Source: Methylocystis heyeri
Lineage (GTDB): Bacteria; Pseudomonadota; Alphaproteobacteria; Rhizobiales; Beijerinckiaceae
Length of the DNA: 64,000 nt
Assembly: GCF_004802635.2 (NCBI RefSeq)
Contig: NZ_CP046052.1
Span: forward strand, 2,542,001 to 2,606,000
Direction of reading: 5' to 3'
Shown: positions 711-52,262 of the stretch, piece by piece
Layout: every line of letters begins with the position of its first letter
Position numbering within the stretch: the stretch's first letter is position 1
Position numbers and translations under genes: made by a program
Notes under the pieces: model-generated
What the model saw: only the letters and a program-made list of their open reading frames with translations
Told to the model about the DNA's origin: nothing
Database searches by the model: none

Positions 711-950
711 CCCGTCGCCGTGAGGGCGGGGAGCGGAAGGCGACGGGGCTTGCGAGCAATCTCGGGGCAAGCCGAAGGAGCGCTCGCAAACTCGAAACCG
801 ATCGATCGGCCGGGCGCTTGAAGCCTTTGTTCGTCCCGGCGATAATGAGAAGCCTACAGTCTGCTGTCTGAACAGAGCCTGTCTGCGCCGTTCATCTTGC
901 AGTCAGGCAGGATTGGTTTAGCTCGTCCGAAAAACGTTTGCGCGAGCCCG

Positions 951-1622
951 ATGGAAACTCGTCGATTGATCGAGCGACAACAGATCCGCCTGCTGATCGC
1001 GGAAGACCAGCCCTTGATCCGAAAGGCGGTCGTCGCCCTGCTCGAGCTCGAACCGGATATTTCGGTCGTCGCCCAGGCGGCCGACGGCGTGGAGGCGATT
1101 CAGGCGGCCCGGGCTTTTCGTCCCGATGTCGTCCTCATGGACGTCAAGATGCCGCGCCTCGACGGCATCTCGGCCACCCGCGCGATTCTGCAGGACAATC
1201 CCGACGCCCAGGTCATCATGCTCACGACTTTCGAGACCGACGACCTCGTCTTCGAGGCCATTCTGGCGGGCGCCAAGGCCTATCTGCTGAAGGACGCCGA
1301 GGAAAAAGAGATCCTGGAGGCTATCCGCGCCGCGGCGCGCGGCGAGCCGCGGCTTTCGCCGCGCATCGCCGAAAAGATCATCGGCGAGTTCCGCCGGGTC
1401 AAATTTCCCGAGAGAGCCGAAGCCCAGCTCGAACGCGAGCCGCTCACCGAAAGGGAAAGGGAAGTGCTGGCGGGGGTGGCTGCGGGCAAAGGCAACCGCG
1501 AGATCGCAAAAGAGCTTCGTCTTGCGGAAGGCACGGTGAAGAATCACGTGAGCGCGATTCTCGCCAAGCTGCATTTGCGCAGCCGCACCGAGCTCGCGAT
1601 CAAGGCGCTGTCGGGGAAATAG
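951..1622 (+). CDS. NarL/FixJ-type response regulator (orphan)
   Basis: The 223-aa protein has an N-terminal receiver domain (residues 12-130) with the acidic pair E18-D19, phospho-acceptor D64 in VLMDVKMPR, a conserved Thr after the fourth strand (LTTFE) and Lys in YLLKD. A C-terminal LuxR-type helix-turn-helix follows (LTEREREVL to GTVKNHVSAILAKL). It should bind DNA after phosphorylation. No histidine kinase is adjacent, so its partner lies elsewhere. ATG at 951 fits the usual short leader before the first strand; TTG at 897 is in frame and would add 18 residues. The flanking genes run in other directions, so it is probably monocistronic. Confidence 0.85.
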   Translation: METRRLIERQQIRLLIAEDQPLIRKAVVALLELEPDISVVAQAADGVEAIQAARAFRPDVVLMDVKMPRLDGISATRAILQDNPDAQVIMLTTFETDDLVFEAILAGAKAYLLKDAEEKEILEAIRAAARGEPRLSPRIAEKIIGEFRRVKFPERAEAQLEREPLTEREREVLAGVAAGKGNREIAKELRLAEGTVKNHVSAILAKLHLRSRTELAIKALSGK

Positions 1623-1683: not shown

Positions 1684-3105
1684 TTATGGCGCGCACACAC
1701 TGTGCTGCGTCCCGCCAAACACTTCTTTCACCTGGTTCACGCACTCCAATGTGTAGACCGTGCCGTTGTTGGTGGGGCCGTAATATGAGGTGACCCCGAA
1801 TGCCGCCAGACCGAAGCCGAAGCCGGGCGCCCCGAACATCACGCCGCCCATCGGGTAGCCGCCATCGGCCCCTCCGGTGAAACTGTAAAGGTTGGCGTAA
1901 ACCCATTGCGCCGAAGGAGAGACCGCCGGCCTGATCTGAAAGACCGCGCCGAATCCATTCTTGCCGCCGCCGTAAGTCGTTCCGTAAATCGCTCCGCCCA
2001 TGAGGGTCAGGGGAGCGTAGGGATAAATGCCGTCGTCGCCGTTCGCGTAACTGAAACTGTGCAGCACGCTCTCGGTCCACTGCATCGAAGGCGAAACTGG
2101 AGGATTCAACCGGAACACGACGCCGGCGTTCTCGGCTCCGCCTCTGAGCGTCGCGCCAAAGAGCGCGCCGTTCGTATCCATTACGACCCCGGCGTTCGGC
2201 TTCGCCCCGTCGCTTCCGCCGAAACTATAAAGCACGGTCTCGCACCAAAAATTCGGGGCGTTGGGCGCGCATGCCGCGCCGGAAGGCCTGAGCTGGAACA
2301 CGACGCCGTTTCCGCTCCCGCCGGCCTGAGTCGAGCCATAGAGCGCGCCGCCCGTATCCATGATCAGTTGAGACAGGGGGTTGGCCCCGTCTGCGCCTCC
2401 GGTGAAGTTGTAGATCGCCGTCGCGGTCCATTGCCCTGAAGGCGTAGCGGGAGGCGTCAGCTTAAAGACGGCGCCGCCGCCGGAAGCGCCCCCGCCCCTC
2501 GCCGTTCCGTAAAGAGCGCCGCTGCTGTCGAAGATAACGCCCGCGGCGGCATTGGCGCCCACGGTCCCGTCAAATTGGTAGAGCGAGGTCAGGGTCCATT
2601 GGCCCGAGGCGGTGACGGGCGGCTTCAGCTTGAAAACCGTGCCCATGCCATTGGCGCCCCCGGTGTTGGTCGTGCCGTAGAGCGCGCCCTGCGAGTCGAA
2701 GGTCAGTGACGAAATCGGGGATCCGCCATCCAGGCCGTCGCCGAAACTGTACAGCAGGGTCTCGGTCCACCTGGATCGCCCCAAACCGGGAGGCGATATT
2801 TTGAACACGGCCCCGAAGCCTTGGACGCCGCCCTGGAGCGCCGTGCCATAGAGCTCGCCCGAGCTGCTCATCGTCAACGTTACATTTTGCGGCTCGCTTG
2901 CATCGAGCCCGCCTGAAAAGGCGTAAAGCGTCGCTTCGGTAAGCGGTGGCGACGCCCAGATTTGGGCCACAGCCGGGGACTTGTTCCAGCGCCTATGGAA
3001 ACAAGCGACAAACAGCAGCAAAATCGAAAACCAGATCGAATCATGGATTGGGCCCCAAAAACGTAAGTATCGCGTTATTAGGGAAGCAAAAGGCGCAAGC
3101 GTCAA
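1684..3105 (-). CDS. GloVer-repeat protein, secreted (seven repeats)
   Basis: After a hydrophobic stretch near the N-terminus (IWFSILLLFVACF), the protein consists of seven tandem units of about 50-60 residues. Each carries LYxFxGGxDG, GALYGTT and GTVFKLxPP, the pattern of the 'choice-of-anchor tandem repeat GloVer' family (TIGR03803). Seven units would suit a beta-propeller, but that is inference; the function of the family is not established. The start is uncertain: the frame stays open into the upstream GTPase gene, no ATG exists after that gene's stop, and TTG at 3105 (AAGGAGGAG about 15 nt upstream) is my best choice. A second, frameshifted GloVer gene lies at 21650. Confidence 0.65.
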   Translation of the reverse strand: MTLAPFASLITRYLRFWGPIHDSIWFSILLLFVACFHRRWNKSPAVAQIWASPPLTEATLYAFSGGLDASEPQNVTLTMSSSGELYGTALQGGVQGFGAVFKISPPGLGRSRWTETLLYSFGDGLDGGSPISSLTFDSQGALYGTTNTGGANGMGTVFKLKPPVTASGQWTLTSLYQFDGTVGANAAAGVIFDSSGALYGTARGGGASGGGAVFKLTPPATPSGQWTATAIYNFTGGADGANPLSQLIMDTGGALYGSTQAGGSGNGVVFQLRPSGAACAPNAPNFWCETVLYSFGGSDGAKPNAGVVMDTNGALFGATLRGGAENAGVVFRLNPPVSPSMQWTESVLHSFSYANGDDGIYPYAPLTLMGGAIYGTTYGGGKNGFGAVFQIRPAVSPSAQWVYANLYSFTGGADGGYPMGGVMFGAPGFGFGLAAFGVTSYYGPTNNGTVYTLECVNQVKEVFGGTQHSVCAP

Positions 3106-3205
3106 CGCCGCGCCGACGCCCTCCTCCTTGGTCCGTCGGCTTCCCGACCGCCAAGTCCGACCTCGACGTTTCTTGTCGCAGAGCTTCAGCAAGAGAGCTG
3201 ATATG

Positions 3206-3709
3206 CTACGACGCCCGCCGCCAGATGGCCGCGCCCAGTCTTTGAAACAGCTCCGCCACGCCTTCGCCGGTCTTGGCGCTGGAGTAGAGCACATCCCCTG
3301 CAAAGCCGGCGGCGGGCCCGAGATCGCCCGGCGGGGGCGCAATATCGACCTTGTTGACGATGACGATCGCGGGGCGGCCGGGAAACCGCTCTTCGAACCT
3401 CTGCGCCAGCGAAGCCGCCTTTACGATCGTGCTCGGACGGGAAGCGTCCGCGACCACGATCGCGCCCGAAGCTCCCGCCACATAAACTGTGTCGAAGATC
3501 CTGTCGCCGAAATCGCCGTCGGTGTCCCACAGCACCAGCCGCAGCGTTTCCCCGCCGCAGTCCGGCCCGAGGCCGATGTCGTGGGTGAGAACGTCGACGC
3601 CGATCGTGGTTTTGTAGTCGCTTTCGAATTTATTGAACACGCAACGACGCGCCAGGGAGGTTTTCCCGACCCCGATATCGCCCAGAAGCATGACTTTCGC
3701 CGATATCAT
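3206..3709 (-). CDS. Ras/Rab-like small GTPase
   Basis: This 167-aa protein is a single Ras-superfamily G domain. Visible motifs are G1 GDIGVGKT (10-17), G2 TTIGVD (34-39), G3 WDTDGD (61-66), G4 NKVD (119-122) and G5 SSAK (143-146). At the position of Ras Gln61 there is Asp66, so intrinsic hydrolysis is probably slow or needs a partner. There is no C-terminal cysteine for lipidation. ATG at 3709 overlaps the stop of the upstream OmpA-domain gene by four bases (ATGA), so the two are translationally coupled. The OmpA-domain protein, with its cytoplasmic longin/roadblock-like segment, is the obvious candidate partner. The family is clear; the cellular role is unknown. Confidence 0.85.
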   Translation of the reverse strand: MISAKVMLLGDIGVGKTSLARRCVFNKFESDYKTTIGVDVLTHDIGLGPDCGGETLRLVLWDTDGDFGDRIFDTVYVAGASGAIVVADASRPSTIVKAASLAQRFEERFPGRPAIVIVNKVDIAPPPGDLGPAAGFAGDVLYSSAKTGEGVAELFQRLGAAIWRRAS

Positions 3710-5322
3710 CGGATGTCGAATTCGCCTTCGAACGGCCGCTCGAATACGACGCGCCGGCTTCGGTTGGGGTTGAGGCTCCAATCGGCGAGAGGCTCGAGCG
3801 TGGAGCGCGAAAGAACCGCGAGTCGCGACCGCGGCACCCCCCGTTCGACCAGCATGGCGGCGACCTTTTCCGCGCGCTGGCGGGAGACGGTCGCGTTTCT
3901 GGCCTGCGAGCCGGTGACCGGATCGGCGTAACCCACGATGCGAAGGTTGACGCCCGCCTTCTTGATCAGATCGGCGAGCTCGTCGAGACGGGGATTGACG
4001 GCGGCGGGATCGGCGAGATTGTCCTGTCGGTTGAAGAACACGGCGAAATGCTCGATCAGGCGATTGAGCTGCGTCCCCGGAGCCTCGGCCTGCTGTTCCA
4101 TGCGCCGTAGCGTGGCCTGCGACTGTTCCAGCTCCTGCCTCAAAGAACCTAGAGCCGCGGCCGTCGCCAGCGCCGCCACGTCGCGCTCGACCCGATAGGG
4201 TTCGGCCGCCGGCGCGATTTTGCTGATGATTCGCTGAGGGCCGTCTTCGTCGGCGGCGAGCCCGCGCAGCATCACCCGCTGTTTTTCATGGTCCACTTCG
4301 AGCCGCAGGGGATATTGGGCCAGAGAAGGCTCCGCGGCATGGGCGGCGGCGTAGGCGGTTTCGATGCGATGGTCGCGCAAGGCCCGCAATGCGGGCTTGT
4401 AGACCGCAAAGGCGGCCAGGATCGCCACGCCGGCGGCGACGATCTTCAGCGGAGTTTTGCTCGAAGGCTTGGCCGACTGGGTTTTCAGCGCCTCGCCGAG
4501 ACCGTCGGCGAGCGTCTGGCCATCGATCGCTTCGCCGTTTTTTTCCTGAAGCTCGACGATCGCCAAAAAAACCGCATCGAGCTGGCGCTCGAACGCTTTC
4601 GACAACTCGCCCGAAAACTCGGCCGCCACGATAAGCCGCGCCGAAGCGCGCAGAAAGACATGGTTGGCGCCGAGATCGAGCATTCGCAGCTCGCCGCCCC
4701 TGTCTGCGTAGACCGTGGCCGCGAACTCCGTGATGGCGGCGATGAGGCCGCTCGTCAGCTCGTTCTGTTCGCCGGATTCGGCGGCGGCCGTCGGCCATGC
4801 CGTCAACACGCGCCCGCTGCCGCGCTCCAGCAGCAGGGCGCGCCTGAGACGAGCCACCTTCTCGGCCTCCGCCAGCGCCACCTCGGCCATCGAGCGCCCC
4901 GTCATCAGCGCGCGCAAACGCAGCCGCCAGACATTGGTCGACACCATGTCGTCGATGCGGCGGTTCAGCGATTCGATGAGCTCGGCGAAGGCGTTGGCCA
5001 CCGCGGCGGTGACGAGGCGCCCCGTGATCGGGTAAAGCGCCTCGACCATCATGTCTTTGGAGTTCCTGATCTCGCTGCGGATCGCCGCCACGATCAAGGG
5101 AGCGATGACGCCCGCGAGCTCCTTGTGACGCGAGACTTCCGCCCTGCGCAGGGCGTCGACCAGAATCTCCGCCGTGGCCGCCTCGAGTCGCGACCTGTCG
5201 CCCACATAGCCGTCGACCCGGCGCAGCTCCTGCTCGATTTCGCCCAGGCGGCGGAAGTCGTCCCCGATAATGAGGGATTTCAACCGGTCGAAGCTTTCGC
5301 TTTCTGCTTCGTCGCCGGCCAT
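3706..5322 (-). CDS. Inner-membrane protein with cytoplasmic domain, one TM segment and periplasmic OmpA/MotB domain
   Basis: The 538 residues divide as follows: an alpha-helical N-terminal region (1-175), a 190-270 segment resembling a longin/roadblock fold (my inference from its strand/helix pattern), a single membrane helix at about 291-309, a short BON-like stretch (337-372), a coiled coil (387-412) and a C-terminal OmpA domain (420-530). The OmpA domain keeps the peptidoglycan-binding signature NATVSRQRAEKV and the preceding GYAD aspartate. The protein would therefore link a cytoplasmic domain to the cell wall. It starts one base after the upstream small gene ends and overlaps the downstream GTPase gene by four bases. 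I recall similar N-terminal regions in cyanobacterial OmpA proteins but cannot verify this here. Confidence 0.75.
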   Translation of the reverse strand: MAGDEAESESFDRLKSLIIGDDFRRLGEIEQELRRVDGYVGDRSRLEAATAEILVDALRRAEVSRHKELAGVIAPLIVAAIRSEIRNSKDMMVEALYPITGRLVTAAVANAFAELIESLNRRIDDMVSTNVWRLRLRALMTGRSMAEVALAEAEKVARLRRALLLERGSGRVLTAWPTAAAESGEQNELTSGLIAAITEFAATVYADRGGELRMLDLGANHVFLRASARLIVAAEFSGELSKAFERQLDAVFLAIVELQEKNGEAIDGQTLADGLGEALKTQSAKPSSKTPLKIVAAGVAILAAFAVYKPALRALRDHRIETAYAAAHAAEPSLAQYPLRLEVDHEKQRVMLRGLAADEDGPQRIISKIAPAAEPYRVERDVAALATAAALGSLRQELEQSQATLRRMEQQAEAPGTQLNRLIEHFAVFFNRQDNLADPAAVNPRLDELADLIKKAGVNLRIVGYADPVTGSQARNATVSRQRAEKVAAMLVERGVPRSRLAVLSRSTLEPLADWSLNPNRSRRVVFERPFEGEFDIR

Positions 5323-5323
5323 T

Positions 5324-5653
5324 TCAGCCGCCCTTGCGCTGAGCGCTCAGATTTTGAACCGTGGCTCCGAGCTGCGCGATGGCGGAGCCGACCGCGTGTA
5401 TCGAAGCCGCGCGATTGTCCTCGGTGTCGCGGGCGAGCTGAATCAACTGATTTTCGAGCGCCGACAGGCGCGCCAGCAGATCGGCCCGCATCGCCTCCAG
5501 TTTTTCGTCCAGCGCCTGAAGGTTCTGTTCGGTCGACCGCTTCGACTCGCCGAACAACAGCTCCCGAACCTGCTCCATCGGATCGTGAGCAGGCGCAACA
5601 TTTCCCGTTGCGCCCGAGGCTTCTGCTCCGGTTCCGTTTCCGAACTCAGACAT
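5324..5653 (-). CDS. Small coiled-coil protein, first gene of the GTPase/OmpA module
   Basis: The 109-aa product has no signal peptide or membrane helix. Residues from about 25 to 85 are rich in heptad-like Leu/Ala/Glu/Arg (EQNLQALDEKLEAMRADLL), predicting a coiled coil; the ends are Gly/Ala-rich and flexible. ATG at 5653 is preceded by CAGGAG. The stop is followed one base later by the OmpA-domain gene, so the two form one transcription unit with the GTPase gene. I do not recognise a family. A scaffold or regulator for its neighbours is the simplest inference. Confidence 0.65.
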   Translation of the reverse strand: MSEFGNGTGAEASGATGNVAPAHDPMEQVRELLFGESKRSTEQNLQALDEKLEAMRADLLARLSALENQLIQLARDTEDNRAASIHAVGSAIAQLGATVQNLSAQRKGG

Positions 5654-6266
5654 TTTTCAACTCCTGAAAACCAGTTGCAAACTACGCGAGAACGCAAACG
5701 ATAAAGGCCGGGCCTGCGCTCCAACTCGTCGATCTGGCGCGATTTTTTCGCTCGAACAATCTCGAGCCCTACGCGCGGGAGCCCATCGTCCGCAAAAGTC
5801 GAGAGTCTCTTGCGATGAAAATGCGCTCCAATTTATTGAATCGGCGCGATTTCTCGGCGCTCGAACGATTCCGTCCGAGCGAGGAGCGCGCTGATCGGGC
5901 GCTTTGAATCACGCTCAAAGGCGCCGCTGCGGCGACAGCCAACCGATTGATGCAACGGGCTTTCTCTACCAAAGGCGCCCCAAGGTGGAAACACGAATCT
6001 TTGGTTAACGTGCGGAGCCGATGCGCATATCGGCGCCCGGGCTGACCGTAAGTCGATGTAGTAATTAAATTTTTACTATAATCGAAAGCTTTTGCCCGGG
6101 GATGGTCCTCGATGTTGTGCGGCGCCAGAACGCAGCCCTGGCGAAAGTCATTTCATATTCGTGACTAAAAGCACTTTCGCCCCGGAAAGCGATGGCGCAG
6201 TTTCGGCTTAGCGACCATCTCCGCGGACCTGCCGGTCTTGGGGGGAAGGGAGCGGGAAACAGCAAA
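5654..6266. other. Divergent intergenic region
   Basis: About 610 bases separate the GTPase/OmpA module (minus) from ihfA (plus) and must hold both promoters. I see no convincing gene. It contains one copy of the dispersed TTGCGAT repeat (5791-5832) and a locally AT-rich stretch around 6058-6085. The short open frames here have no coding character. Confidence 0.5.
5791..5832. repeat. Dispersed intergenic repeat, TTGCGAT/GCGCTCCAA family (copy 1)
   Basis: The stretch CGCAAAAGTC...TTGCGATG followed by AAAATGCGCTCCAA matches copies at 8474, 21354 and 54191. All copies lie between genes and are partly self-complementary. Confidence 0.5.
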
Positions 6267-6734
6267 ATGATAGAGCGTAAATCAATGTTCCTGAGCGAAT
6301 ACACCTCCCTTCACGCGGCTGGCTCCGCTGCGGGATACGACGAGCCTGAGAAGATTCAGGGCACGCTCACCCGCCATGACATCGCCGAGACCATATCAGA
6401 GCGATGCCCGGGCCTGTCGAAACGCGAGGCCAAAAAACTCGTCGACTCGGTAATCGAGGAGATGACCGTCGCCCTATGCCGGGGCGAAACCGTCAAGCTG
6501 CATGATTTCGGCTCATTTGTCGTGCGCAGCAAAGGCGAACGCGAGGGGCGCAACCCGCGCACCGGCGCCAAAGTGCCGATCGAACCCAGGATCGTCGTGG
6601 TCTTCAAGCCTTCGCCCAATATGAAGGGGACCGTGAACGGAGACGAAGGCGGCGAGAGGCAGCGTCCGGGCCGAAAGAAAGGCGCGGCGAAAAATCCGGG
6701 CGACGGCGACGGCGGCGCTTTCCGCAACAACTGA
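6267..6734 (+). CDS. ihfA: IHF-alpha/HU-family DNA-binding protein (divergent, with extensions)
   Basis: The core (about residues 30-120) is a HU/IHF domain: dimer helices, the KLHDFGSFVVR strand, and the beta-arm GRNPRTG whose proline intercalates and bends DNA. TLTR at the domain start and VPIEPR after the arm are IHF-alpha-like. Compared with a roughly 100-residue IHF-alpha, it carries about 30 extra residues in front and a basic Gly/Lys/Arg tail behind, and the core itself differs from the canonical sequence, so it may be a paralogue. ATG at 6267 has GGGAGCGGG upstream; ATGs at 6192 and 6285 are alternatives. The symbol denotes the family rather than proven orthology. Confidence 0.75.
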   Translation: MIERKSMFLSEYTSLHAAGSAAGYDEPEKIQGTLTRHDIAETISERCPGLSKREAKKLVDSVIEEMTVALCRGETVKLHDFGSFVVRSKGEREGRNPRTGAKVPIEPRIVVVFKPSPNMKGTVNGDEGGERQRPGRKKGAAKNPGDGDGGAFRNN

Positions 6735-33784: not shown

Positions 33785-35917
33785 TCACCAGTAATATTTC
33801 AGGCTCTTCGCCCAGGGCGTCGCGCCGTAGCGGGCCTTGAGCTGGTCATGCCAGGCCTTGCGCTGCCGAAGATCCACATCCTTGCCGCCGCAGCCGTTGG
33901 CGCCGACCGGAGCGTAGCAGTTGACCGCCCGGAAGAGCGCATAGGCCTTTTTGCGATCGGGCGTCTTCGGGTCGGCGATGAGCTTCTTGTAGATTTCGCC
34001 GCGGGAGAATTTCTCGCCGGGGAAGATCGATTTGGAGCCGCCCAGCTCGTTCGGCGCCGGCCTGTCATATTCGAAGTCGTCGAGATCGGAGCTGCGCGTG
34101 AAGTCGCCGAGGCACAGCAGCCCGTGGGGCGAGCGCGGATCGGCGGCAAGCTCGGCGACGACCGACTTCAATGTCGGACAAGGGTAGGATTCCGCCGAGC
34201 CGTCCCATTTGAACAGCGTCGACTTCGGCGTCATCTCCTGCGGATCGGCGCCGGCGTCGTCCTTCTCGACGGCTTCCGGCGAATAGTCCTTCAGAAAGCC
34301 GGCGTATTGGCCGCGCGTCGCCTCCTTGTAGAGCAGCACGAAGCGCGCGAGCCGCCGCTCCGCTGGAATCGACGACGGGTCCTCGACGGCCATGCGCAGC
34401 AGGATCGGCCCCGCGACATGGCGCAGGATAATGGCGCGCACGCTCGGCGTGGAGAGGCGCGTCTCGGGCAGGAAGATTTTGTTGGCGGTCCCGGCCCGTT
34501 CCCAGGCCATGGCCAGACCGACCTCGACCGCCTCCTTCCGCCAGGGCTGCGCGGCGAGCGGCAGCAGGCGCGAAAACTGCTCGGCGGCCTCGGAAAAGCG
34601 CGCCGAGGCCAGCAGCGCCTGACCCCGCAGCATCTCGGCGCTGAAAGCCACCCATGACAGCGGCGGGAAGGCGGCGGGCGCCTCGCCGAGCAGCCGCAGC
34701 GTCGTCGCGGAGTCGCCGTCGATATAATAGGCGCGGGCGGCTTTGAGAAAAGCGAGCAGCCGCTCGTTGCCGGAGAAGCGCGGCGCCTCTGCGTCGAGAT
34801 CGGCCGCGGGGAATTGCGGCGCCTTGTCGCCGGCCTCCCGCCGCATGCGCATCAGATCGGCGACGGCGAGAAGGTTGGGGTCGACGCCTTCGGCGGCTGC
34901 AGCCTTGCCGTCGCCGAGATATTTGAGGTCGATCTCCTGCGCCAGTGCGGGGATGTCGGGATCTGTAGCCGAGCCGGCGGCGCGCTTGATGCGCGCGCCA
35001 TAATCGGCGGCGAGCCGCGCCTTGTCGCCGGCGAGCCAGTAGATGCGCCGCTGCAGGCCGCGCGCCGAGGCGGCGTAGCGTCCCGCCGGATAATCGGCGA
35101 GATAGGATTTGAACGCGGCTTCTGCGGCGTCGAGCGAGGCCCGGTCGGTCACCTTGGGCTCGGGAACGCCGTCGAAATCGGCGAAGGCGCCCTTCTGCGC
35201 CTTGTTGAGCAGCGTACGCGCCACCATGTAGCGGGCGCTCTCGCGCAGCCAGGCGTTTTGGGCTTTCGCCAGCCCCTCGAAACCGGCCCGCGCCTCGTCG
35301 AAGGCGCCGTCGTAGAATTGCTGCGCCGCGACCAGATAGGCCGCGAAATCCCGGGCGGCGGCGGAAGGTTTCGGCGCGCCCGCGAGCGGGTCCTCGCTCG
35401 TCGCCGGACTCGTCTTGTCGTCGCAGGTCGCGGTCACGCGCGCGCGCGCCGCCGTCAGCGCGTCGCGCTCGGCTTCGGACAGCGACTTGTCCGCTTGCAC
35501 GGCCTCGACGAAGGCCTTCCTGCCCGCCTCCAGCGAAAGGCAGCGGCTGCCTTCGCCGTCCGCCAATGCGGGCGAGGCAGCGCTGGCGTCCGGAGGCGCG
35601 ACGCCCGGCGCCGGGATGCGGCCGCAGGCGCTGCTGAGATCGGCGATGGTGAACATCGAGGCTGCGTCGACGTCCTTCGAGGCCTCGGGCGTCGCGCCGG
35701 CCGGCAGCGTCAGCGAACGCGCGTCGAGCGTCAGCAGTTGGAGATTGATGCGGCTGTCGTTGCCGGGGCTGAGAAAAGGCAACCCGGCGCCGCCGGCATA
35801 GGATTTATGGTCGAGCGACCAATGCTGGGCGGGCGGTCCGCCGGCGCCCCCGCAGGCATGCGCCGCGCCGGGCAGGAACAGGAGGCAGGAAATCGCGCCG
35901 AGGAGAATCTGCCGCAT
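33785..35917 (-). CDS. Large exported TPR-like repeat protein
   Basis: The 710-aa protein begins with a signal peptide ending AAHACGG near residue 24; the cysteine could be lipidated, though a classical lipobox is not clear. Most of the rest is helical hairpins resembling tetratricopeptide units (for example QQFYDGAFDEARAGFEGLAK and ASARFSEAAEQFSRLL), similar to BamD/YfiO-type proteins. It is the first gene of the operon with DUF3142 and the 39-aa gene; GAGG precedes ATG 35917. I take it as an envelope scaffold; function unknown. Confidence 0.65.
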   Translation of the reverse strand: MRQILLGAISCLLFLPGAAHACGGAGGPPAQHWSLDHKSYAGGAGLPFLSPGNDSRINLQLLTLDARSLTLPAGATPEASKDVDAASMFTIADLSSACGRIPAPGVAPPDASAASPALADGEGSRCLSLEAGRKAFVEAVQADKSLSEAERDALTAARARVTATCDDKTSPATSEDPLAGAPKPSAAARDFAAYLVAAQQFYDGAFDEARAGFEGLAKAQNAWLRESARYMVARTLLNKAQKGAFADFDGVPEPKVTDRASLDAAEAAFKSYLADYPAGRYAASARGLQRRIYWLAGDKARLAADYGARIKRAAGSATDPDIPALAQEIDLKYLGDGKAAAAEGVDPNLLAVADLMRMRREAGDKAPQFPAADLDAEAPRFSGNERLLAFLKAARAYYIDGDSATTLRLLGEAPAAFPPLSWVAFSAEMLRGQALLASARFSEAAEQFSRLLPLAAQPWRKEAVEVGLAMAWERAGTANKIFLPETRLSTPSVRAIILRHVAGPILLRMAVEDPSSIPAERRLARFVLLYKEATRGQYAGFLKDYSPEAVEKDDAGADPQEMTPKSTLFKWDGSAESYPCPTLKSVVAELAADPRSPHGLLCLGDFTRSSDLDDFEYDRPAPNELGGSKSIFPGEKFSRGEIYKKLIADPKTPDRKKAYALFRAVNCYAPVGANGCGGKDVDLRQRKAWHDQLKARYGATPWAKSLKYYW

Positions 35918-49890: not shown

Positions 49891-50355
49891 CTATTTTAGG
49901 CTTAAGTTCCGAATAAAATGAAGCATTTTTTCCAGTACGGCGGCGTCGCGGATCGCGGCGGCGCAGCGTGGAAGGCTCACGCCGCAAATTTGTGTCAGAT
50001 CCGCTTCCGGCGACGGATATCGAGGATGGCTCTCGCCCGAGGGCGGCTCGAGGTCGACGACGCCGAGAATCGCCCCTGCGGGTTCGAAGGCGACTGAAAC
50101 CAGACCGCGCCCGCGCATTTCGATCAGGCCGGCGACGGCGGGATGGGGACGTGCGATCAACCGCCCGCTGCGATTTTCGACCGCCACCCGGTCGTCTCCG
50201 ATCAATCTGGCGAAAAAGCCTCGCGAGGCGGCCCACTCGACGAGGCGCAGGGTCAAGGCGCTTTTGCCTGAGCCCGGGACGCCGCGCAGGAGGAGGCCGG
50301 TCTCGCCGATGAGGAGCGCATTGGCGTGGATGAAGGTCGGCGGCCGCTCGATCAT
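49891..50355 (-). CDS. hprK: HPr kinase/phosphorylase, short alphaproteobacterial form
   Basis: The 154-aa protein is only the C-terminal kinase domain of HprK, as usual in alphaproteobacteria. The P-loop GVPGSGKS is at residues 25-32, the IGDDRVAV acidic motif follows, and GRGLVSV corresponds to the family's capping region. It phosphorylates the regulatory serine of HPr. Its ATG overlaps the stop of chvG by four bases, coupling it to the two-component system. The short stem AGCCAAA/TTTGGCT (49870-49892) lies at its stop. Confidence 0.9.
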   Translation of the reverse strand: MIERPPTFIHANALLIGETGLLLRGVPGSGKSALTLRLVEWAASRGFFARLIGDDRVAVENRSGRLIARPHPAVAGLIEMRGRGLVSVAFEPAGAILGVVDLEPPSGESHPRYPSPEADLTQICGVSLPRCAAAIRDAAVLEKMLHFIRNLSLK

Positions 50356-52229
50356 CGCTCCGCGGGCAGCCACACGACGAAACGGGCTCCGAGCACGGCG
50401 TCGCCCTGCGCCGCCTCCCCCGAGCCGGCGTCGCAATGCGGCGGCTCGTCCGTGCCCTCGGGGGCCGAAAGAGTGCGGTTGAGAGCGCGGACGCGTCCGC
50501 CATGGGCCTCGACGATCTGGCGGGAGATCGACAGGCCGAGACCCGAATTCTGGCCGAATCCCTGCTGGGGGCGATCGGTGTAGAAGCGCTCGAACACCCG
50601 CTCGAAGGCCCCCTGGGGAATTCCCGGACCGTCGTCGTCGACCAGAATCTCATATCCTTCCCGCAGCTGGCCCGAAATATCGATCCCGGTTTCGGGCCGC
50701 AGAGTCACCCGCACCACATCGCCGGGAGAAGAAAACGACCGCGCATTGGCGATGAGATTGTCGAACACCTGAGCCAGACGAGAATCATGCCCGAACACGC
50801 GCCAGCGCCGCCGCAGAGCCTCGCCGGCGACGGTCTGTTTCACGAGGGTCACGGTTACGCGGTCGTCGCGGGCGACGCCCTGCGCCATGTCGACGACGGT
50901 GTCGAGCACGGAAGAAATATCCACGCTTCCCATGTCCGCGCGCGCGAGTTCGGCGTCCAGGCGCGAGGCGTCAGAAATATCGGTGATGAGGCGATCCAGC
51001 CGGCCGACGTCGTGCTTGATGATTTCCAGCAGCCGCTCCCGCGCGCTGTCCGTCTTCGCGATCGGCAGCGTCTCCACCGCGCTACGCAGCGAGGTCAGCG
51101 GGTTTTTCAGCTCATGCGCGACATCGGCGGCGAAATGCTCGATCGCCTCGATCCGGCTGTACAGCGCCCTGGTCATGTCCCTCAGCGCGCCGGAGAGATG
51201 GCCGATCTCATCCTGGCGATCGGAAAAATCGGGAATTTCCTGGCGCGATCTCACGCCGCGGCGCACGCGCTCGGCGGCTTCGGCCAGCCTGCGCATCGGC
51301 TCGGCGATGGTCCCCGCGAACAGCAGCGAGAGCAGGAGCATCACGCCCGCCGACACCAGAAAAATGCGGATGATGGCCCAGCGCTCGGTCGCGATTATCG
51401 CGTCGATGTCTCCCCCTAATGTGGAGAGCAGAAGGGCGCCCCGCACGGAGCGGAAGCGCTGCACCGGCACCCCGACGGAGATTATGGTCTCTCCCTTGGC
51501 GTTGACGCGCACGATGGATTGCGCCGTACCGCCGAGCGCCGTCGCCACCTCGGGATAGGCCTTGCCGTTGGCCATCCCGATGTCTTCGTAGAGCGGCAGG
51601 TCGGGCCTGCGCGACCAGCGCCTCAAGGCGTTGGCCGCCTGCTCGAAAAGCGTGGCTTCGTCCCACCCGCCATGCCCGGCTCCGGCGGGCGGCAGATCGA
51701 AGCGGAGGATGTTCGAGCGTCCCGAAACCGAGCGAGAATCCAGCAGAAGCGAACCGTCCCGGTCGTAGATGCGGGCGCGCGTGCGCGTCGGCGACGCCAG
51801 CCGGCGCAGCAAAGGCCCGACCCTTTCGGGGTTGAGAGAAAATTCGAGCGGAGGCTGGCTTCCGTCGGCGGCGCTGAAGCTTTCGCCGGGCGCGAGCTTG
51901 AGCAGCTTTTCCGGGTCTATCGTGATGGCGTCGGTGTCTATGGTGGCCGAGGCCGCCACCGCCGCGGCGATGATCTCGCCCTGGGTCTGCAGGCTTTGGA
52001 CGCGGGCGTCGATGAGGCCTTCGCGAAACTGGTTGAGATAGAGAAAACCGCCGAGAAGCGCGACGAGGCCGCCGAGGTTGAGCACGACGATGCGGCGCGT
52101 GAGCGAAGACGACAGCCGCGCCTGGGCCGTGCGCAACAGCCGCATCACGCGCACCGACGCGACGCGCCCTGCCCGGCTCTGCCGAACCGGCGAGACCGAC
52201 TGCGCCCGTTGCTGCGCCTCGACGCTCAT
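50352..52229 (-). CDS. chvG: Sensor histidine kinase ChvG/ExoS type
   Basis: The 625-aa kinase has two membrane helices (about 46-66 and 284-305) around a periplasmic sensor domain, a HAMP linker, the phospho-acceptor His382 in VAHELKNPLTSLRS, the N box (DNLIANA) and the G boxes (DDGPGIP and GLGLSISRQ). In relatives it responds to envelope or acid stress together with ChvI, and the repressor ExoR controls it from the periplasm. ATG 52229 is chosen; an in-frame start at 52253 adds eight residues. It is followed directly by hprK. Confidence 0.9.
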   Translation of the reverse strand: MSVEAQQRAQSVSPVRQSRAGRVASVRVMRLLRTAQARLSSSLTRRIVVLNLGGLVALLGGFLYLNQFREGLIDARVQSLQTQGEIIAAAVAASATIDTDAITIDPEKLLKLAPGESFSAADGSQPPLEFSLNPERVGPLLRRLASPTRTRARIYDRDGSLLLDSRSVSGRSNILRFDLPPAGAGHGGWDEATLFEQAANALRRWSRRPDLPLYEDIGMANGKAYPEVATALGGTAQSIVRVNAKGETIISVGVPVQRFRSVRGALLLSTLGGDIDAIIATERWAIIRIFLVSAGVMLLLSLLFAGTIAEPMRRLAEAAERVRRGVRSRQEIPDFSDRQDEIGHLSGALRDMTRALYSRIEAIEHFAADVAHELKNPLTSLRSAVETLPIAKTDSARERLLEIIKHDVGRLDRLITDISDASRLDAELARADMGSVDISSVLDTVVDMAQGVARDDRVTVTLVKQTVAGEALRRRWRVFGHDSRLAQVFDNLIANARSFSSPGDVVRVTLRPETGIDISGQLREGYEILVDDDGPGIPQGAFERVFERFYTDRPQQGFGQNSGLGLSISRQIVEAHGGRVRALNRTLSAPEGTDEPPHCDAGSGEAAQGDAVLGARFVVWLPAER

Positions 52230-52262
52230 CGACCGCCCGCGCCCTCCCTGCACCGGTTCAAC

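Follow-up and report, generated by a model that had tools for sequence, protein, structure and literature searches.

How might a Ras-like small GTPase be connected to the cell wall of a methanotrophic bacterium, and to what output? This question is raised by a minus-strand locus in a 64,000-nucleotide stretch of the Methylocystis heyeri genome (NCBI RefSeq assembly GCF_004802635.2, contig NZ_CP046052.1, positions 2,542,001 to 2,606,000 of the forward strand), which is called the window as a whole and from whose first letter positions are counted. Three genes follow one another there and encode a small coiled-coil protein, a 538-residue OmpA-domain protein and a Ras-like GTPase, with a spacing of +1 base between the first two and an overlap of 4 bases between the last two. 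The original prediction, made from the sequence alone, proposed this triad with gaps of +1 and -4 and regarded it as an undescribed, GTPase-controlled trans-envelope device. The triad is found where it was placed (Table 1), and its middle protein has, as claimed, an OmpA domain (PF00691) and one predicted membrane helix, the latter seen as a single hydropathy peak at about residues 294-312.

The reading that we favor, with a probability of about 0.66, is that the triad is a Group 1 Rup system acting as a wall-sensing GTPase switch that feeds a two-component system through interactions that we infer. If true, a Ras-like switch would be connected with the cell wall and with a two-component system alike. 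The original prediction named no output, and a NarL-type response regulator in the window and an unlinked histidine kinase are now associated with the triad. Because of this association, a regulatory pathway is likelier than a mechanical trans-envelope device. The original interpretation is thus supported in part.

A Group 1 Rup system

Prokaryotic small GTPases split into the MglA and Rup families, as set out in the sections of Wuichet and Sogaard-Andersen (2014; PMC4316618) that are drawn on here. In these sections, Group 1 Rup genes adjoin genes for a coiled-coil protein and for a "domain of unknown function", often with a membrane helix and an OmpA domain after it; the GTPases are without the G3 Gln, and the output protein is a histidine kinase or a diguanylate cyclase/phosphodiesterase. 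A member is named in the alphaproteobacterium Mesorhizobium loti, ancestral Rup GTPases are proposed to have given rise to the eukaryotic Ras superfamily, and it is stated that no Rup protein had been characterized at that time. Literature searches among open-licence papers found no later or bench work on Group 1 Rup systems.

As judged from gene content and motifs, the triad is a Group 1 Rup system. It shares with the class, as the cited sections describe it, a Ras-like GTPase with G1-G5 and without the G3 Gln, an adjacent gene for a coiled-coil protein and an adjacent gene that joins the unassigned domain to a membrane helix and an OmpA domain, all of these in the window, and an output protein with a conserved N-terminus. 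The system had thus already been predicted, and the claim that it is undescribed falls. Unlike in the cited sections, the output kinase is unlinked and of the HisKA_3 type, and the block that holds the triad also holds a NarL-type regulator; no output gene is adjacent to the triad in Methylocystis, the genus of the window, and a related kinase gene lies elsewhere in the genome. What is added to the known class is a predicted roadblock/longin fold for its "domain of unknown function" and a dispersed output consisting of kinase and regulator. The fold, and a kinase and a regulator named in one methanotroph genus, turn the cartoon of 2014 into a testable pathway.

The GTPase matches the Pfam families Roc (E 1.6e-19) and Ras (E 5.8e-19) and has all five G motifs (GDIGVGKT, TTIG, WDTDG, NKVD and SSAK). 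Its frame of 167 residues starts from the ATG at 3709, and a longer frame from a TTG at 3781 is also present. Among 76 aligned GTPases, two have a gap at position 61 and none of the 74 readable ones has Gln there, the residues being Asp (36), Asn (15), Gly (9), Ser (7) and others (7). The P-loop Ile stands at what we take to be the place of Gly12 in Ras numbering, which is filled by Ile in 39 of the 76 sequences, Met in 17, Phe in 11, Val in 6, Ala in 1 and Gln in 1, with 1 gap. Such changes at Ras positions 61 and 12 slow hydrolysis and hinder the arginine finger. Because Gln61 is missing and the residue at position 12 is bulky, the GTPase alone probably hydrolyses GTP slowly, and the loss of both Gln61 and Gly12 suggests that the family probably needs other means of switching off.

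The triad resembles MglA/MglB in that a small Ras-like GTPase has a partner of roadblock fold, here a predicted one. However, two marks of the MglA family, a G3 motif ending in PGQ and a coupled MglB homologue, are missing: the G3 motif is a DxxG without Gln (DTDGD) as against the xxPGQ motif of MglA, a Robl_LC7 search gives no match at the locus, and the partner is anchored in the membrane and the wall. The conservons of actinobacteria, or AGPS (CvnA-D), also bring together a histidine kinase, a roadblock protein and a small GTPase in one pathway, along with a further protein. In the parts of PMC13343842 considered here, their GTPase belongs to the MglA family, their roadblock protein is a separate MglB homologue, and neither an OmpA anchor nor a coiled coil is named as a conservon part. 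The triad would work like a conservon, yet it is not one, its GTPase being non-MglA and its roadblock-like domain wall-anchored. A reading in terms of biological conflict was set aside, as the DO-GTPases in the parts of PMC7159879 considered here form another GTPase clade with GAP1 partners; GAP1 genes were not searched for in this analysis.

Conservation of the triad

The original prediction suggested a survey of gene neighborhoods for the triad. A scan of named genomes with the cytoplasmic part of the OmpA-domain protein gave 183 relatives, of which the best 80 loci were kept, and a coiled-coil gene upstream or a GTPase gene downstream was scored when it lay on the same strand with a gap between -250 and +500 bases. 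Among these best 80 of 183 loci, the OmpA domain is present in 75 (the exceptions are L119, L170, L173, L181 and L190), a coiled-coil gene lies directly upstream in 72, a GTPase gene lies directly downstream in 71, and all three occur together in 65. The order of the triad is conserved far beyond chance, and the co-occurrence that the survey was to look for is there. The loci come from Methylocystis, Rhodoblastus, Mesorhizobium, Bradyrhizobium, Hyphomicrobium, Devosia and others, and include three titled Granulosicoccaceae and one Leptobacterium; an M. loti locus (L135) carries the triad. The 80 loci are not independent, because they are the best-scoring ones and hence biased to near relatives, with many close Mesorhizobium, and several of them end at contig edges. 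When genomes were drawn evenly across the phylum, at least 50 of 398 had the cytoplasmic domain, with six candidates scored per genome.

Predicted fold of the cytoplasmic domain

The AlphaFold model on which the fold assignment is based has a predicted template modelling score (pTM) of 0.53 and a mean predicted local distance difference test score (pLDDT) of 76.9. In this model, residues 145-262 seem to have a roadblock/longin topology. The top Foldseek match is an MglA-MglB complex, and among the fold-search matches listed, nearly all titles refer to roadblock, longin, TRAPP, adaptor or dynein-arm entries. A longin/roadblock-like segment that should appear on structure prediction had been proposed at residues 180-290: the fold is present in the model, and the position is shifted. 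A kinship of the cytoplasmic domain with the PAS domain of the kinase was also looked for, and none was seen.

Across 62 aligned sequences, P75, A95, L96, Y97, P98, I99, G101 and G170 are invariant, and residues 95-107 have a pLDDT below 50 in the model. The conserved segment of residues 84-104, which is thus partly modeled at low confidence, is possibly a partner-binding site. The cytoplasmic part has no Pfam family above its curated cut-off, and neither has the small coiled-coil protein. A match to AppA_4HB (E 0.04 and 0.015) was rejected, being below the curated cut-off and limited to one of 62 members. The Type VI, MotB and YiaD names offered by NCBIfam for the OmpA-domain protein are all far below their cut-offs and arise because the OmpA domain is common to them. 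By eye, the periplasmic stretch of about residues 330-380 (window 4183-4335) resembles a BON-type domain, and the Pfam scan gives none there.

In animals, domains of the roadblock/longin kind regulate Ras-like switches. Eukaryotic longin/roadblock platforms such as Mon1-Ccz1, TRAPP, Ragulator and Fuzzy-Inturned are soluble multi-subunit complexes on endomembranes, and we know of none with a cell-wall anchor. The chances seem about even that the domain is a hidden roadblock/longin regulator throughout the Group 1 Rup class. The MglA and Rup branches would then share one partner logic, and the system would be a wall-anchored bacterial counterpart of the eukaryotic Rab/Rag longin/roadblock platforms, coupled to a two-component system.

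The probable output kinase and response regulator

The L068 locus, from a related genus, has genes for a kinase with PAS and HisKA_3 domains and for a NarL-type regulator on the flanks of its triad. The regulator in the window is 59% identical to that of L068, and a kinase relative with 40% identity is encoded at G000:C1:3500702-3502150 in the same genome as the window, about 0.9 Mb away from it. A gene with the N-terminal domain of the kinase lies within the fetched DNA at 58 of the 80 loci, and at 34 it is on the same strand, behind the GTPase gene, with its start at most 1.2 kb after the OmpA gene. The PAS domain of the L117 kinase is modeled with a pLDDT of 91.7, matches PAS/LOV structures and has a predicted PAS fold. 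Pfam scans of 14 proteins with this N-terminal domain identified 13 histidine kinases (HATPase_c) and one protein, at L075, with a LuxR DNA-binding domain. The L075 gene (7758-8429), directly downstream of that for the GTPase, encodes a kinase-type PAS domain followed by the LuxR domain and no kinase, an arrangement that would be expected were the PAS domain the shared input.

The nature of these partners bears on the rival explanation that the triad is a polarity or positioning device, in which the GTPase marks a wall site via the OmpA-domain protein and recruits machinery as MglA does, with gene regulation being secondary. A roadblock-like partner as for MglA/MglB and the wall anchor would fit such a device, and a type IV pilus (T4P)-related gene of the PA5441 family elsewhere in the window would too, as no more than a neighborhood. 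However, the recurrent linked partners, as far as the 14 scanned show, are histidine kinases (13) and a DNA-binding protein (1), with no motility or cytoskeletal protein among them, and the presence of the triad in the genus tracks that of kinase and regulator. We therefore consider a polarity device unlikely.

In a survey of 39 genomes of the genus, with cut-offs of E ≤1e-20 for the GTPase, 1e-50 for the regulator and 1e-30 for the kinase, each of the three is present in the same 9 genomes (Fisher p 4.7e-9, with kinship ignored). On a phosphoenolpyruvate carboxylase (ppc) tree of 36 of these genomes, presence needs five changes, and therefore the nine carriers are not one clade on it; two nodes involved in these changes have a support of only 0.26 and 0.54. 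In G021, which has no system, the two flanks of the triad site are preserved about 0.6 kb apart, with the triad missing. G011 also preserves both flanks, there separated by about 3.6 kb of other DNA. Only parts of the flanks were found in G007 and G047.

In a set of 120 relatives, the GTPase is present in 20 at E ≤1e-24, a cut that was set after viewing the list and that counts nine weaker hits, in frames of about 600-690 residues, as absent. The kinase PAS domain is present in 16 of the 20 GTPase-positive genomes and in none of the 100 GTPase-negative ones (p 1.6e-16, again ignoring kinship), one marginal match of 51 positions (E 2e-4, in G047) being excluded. The PAS profile held none of the nine genus kinases and included the kinase of G070 (as L117).

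Proposed pathway and points against it

In the pathway that we propose, the OmpA-domain protein would span the inner membrane once and hold the peptidoglycan through its OmpA domain, and the state of the wall or envelope would be sensed through this anchor. The cytoplasmic roadblock/longin-like domain would dock the GTPase and set its nucleotide state according to the wall or envelope condition, with the coiled-coil protein as a putative structural adaptor. The GTPase would relay this state to a cytoplasmic histidine kinase by way of the PAS domain of the latter. The kinase, whose gene lies elsewhere in the genome, would in turn phosphorylate the NarL-type regulator to change transcription. 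The direction of signaling and the stimulus are conjectured here along with the interactions.

Several results weigh against this pathway. As to the fold, no Foldseek match has E ≤0.001 (the best is 1.1e-3), and the roadblock assignment depends on a single model. Comparison by hhalign with a shallow alignment of five alphaproteobacterial roadblock sequences gave E 0.75 and no homology, a Robl_LC7 profile run on 150 genomes had no match at this locus, Robl_LC7 is not among the 25 listed of 58 Pfam families for the 62 members, and a sequence profile search of the PDB gave three matches, to ferritin and nucleoporins, at E 0.56 or worse. The lack of a Foldseek match at E ≤0.001 and of any sequence-level match would suit the rival explanation that the middle protein is no more than a wall tether of the OmpA/MotB kind, in which a small alpha/beta fold resembles roadblock proteins by chance; we hold this to be very improbable. 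Robl_LC7 does match in 3 of the 150 genomes, and among the nine genus carriers only in G000, at another locus. There, outside the window (G000:C1:1900164-1902480), separate Robl_LC7 matches lie beside a protein that by eye resembles a metallo-beta-lactamase fold.

As to the output, the cited sections of PMC4316618 call a Gln near the N-terminus of the output protein invariant, with speculation on an in-trans role as a GTPase-activating protein (GAP). This Gln is not invariant here: Gln reaches at most 21 of 62 sequences in any alignment column (the exact column of the paper was not identified), and the in-trans GAP role is unsupported in this set. The match to the kinase falls into two parts in G010 and contains an internal stop in G050, and the PAS kinase was not found in four of the 20 GTPase-positive genomes (G031, G055, G078 and G119), absences that are not proof because few candidates were scored per genome, in many of them only the best 33 from a first look. 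The kinase gene is also unlinked to the triad throughout the genus, which would be expected if the triad acted alone and the co-presence of kinase and regulator reflected common gene gain by related strains and not function. Related strains do share accessory genes, and the regulator gene and the triad belong to one block. However, the carriers do not form one clade on the ppc tree, such a kinase lies near the triad in other genera, and the PAS domain is absent from the GTPase-negative genomes, the marginal match aside, so that we regard a triad acting alone as distinctly improbable. The wall-sensing switch feeding a two-component system is the reading retained, and the features on which it draws are collected in Table 1.

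Table 1. Features of the Group 1 Rup locus and the associated regulator, in window coordinates
Feature	Position	Strand	Basis
Small coiled-coil protein, 109 aa	5324..5653	-	ORF; relatives directly upstream of OmpA gene in 72/80 loci
538-aa protein: helical N-terminus, predicted roadblock/longin-like domain, one membrane helix, periplasmic OmpA domain	3706..5322	-	Pfam, hydropathy, AlphaFold
Most conserved segment, residues 84-104 (...ALYPI.GRLV); candidate partner-binding site	5011..5073	-	Invariant residues in 62 sequences
Roadblock/longin-like domain (predicted), residues 145-262	4537..4890	-	AlphaFold topology a-b-b-a-b-b-b-a; Foldseek and VIA-align matches
Predicted membrane helix, residues 294-312	4387..4443	-	Hydropathy; matching peak in 18/18 aligned sequences
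OmpA peptidoglycan-binding domain, residues 445-522	3757..3990	-	PF00691, E 2.9e-10, 40.8 bits vs cut-off 27.2
Rup-type Ras-like small GTPase, 167 aa	3206..3709	-	Pfam Roc/Ras; G1-G5 motifs; no Gln after DxxG
P-loop GDIGVGKT	3659..3682	-	Motif alignment; Ile at presumed place of Ras Gly12
NarL-type response regulator, same genomic block	897..1622	+	Response_reg and GerE; true start uncertain

Neighboring genes

A repeat protein encoded at 1684-3342 on the minus strand, between the regulator and the GTPase, matches Tachylectin below threshold (E 1.7e-6, 28.4 bits vs a cut-off of 29.8), and L066, the nearest other carrier locus, holds no relative of it. Farther away in the window, the PA5441-family protein (33785-35917, minus strand) scores above its family cut-off, and a ChvG-like sensor kinase match (50352-52253, minus strand) is below its cut-off. 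On the other side of the triad, a gene for an HU-type DNA-binding protein (6192-6734, plus strand; Pfam Bac_DNA_binding, E 4.8e-26) adjoins the coiled-coil gene. No relative of it was found at the corresponding site in G021 and G011; relatives with 45-65% identity lie beside the triad in all eight other genus carriers and in none of the 11 other loci compared.
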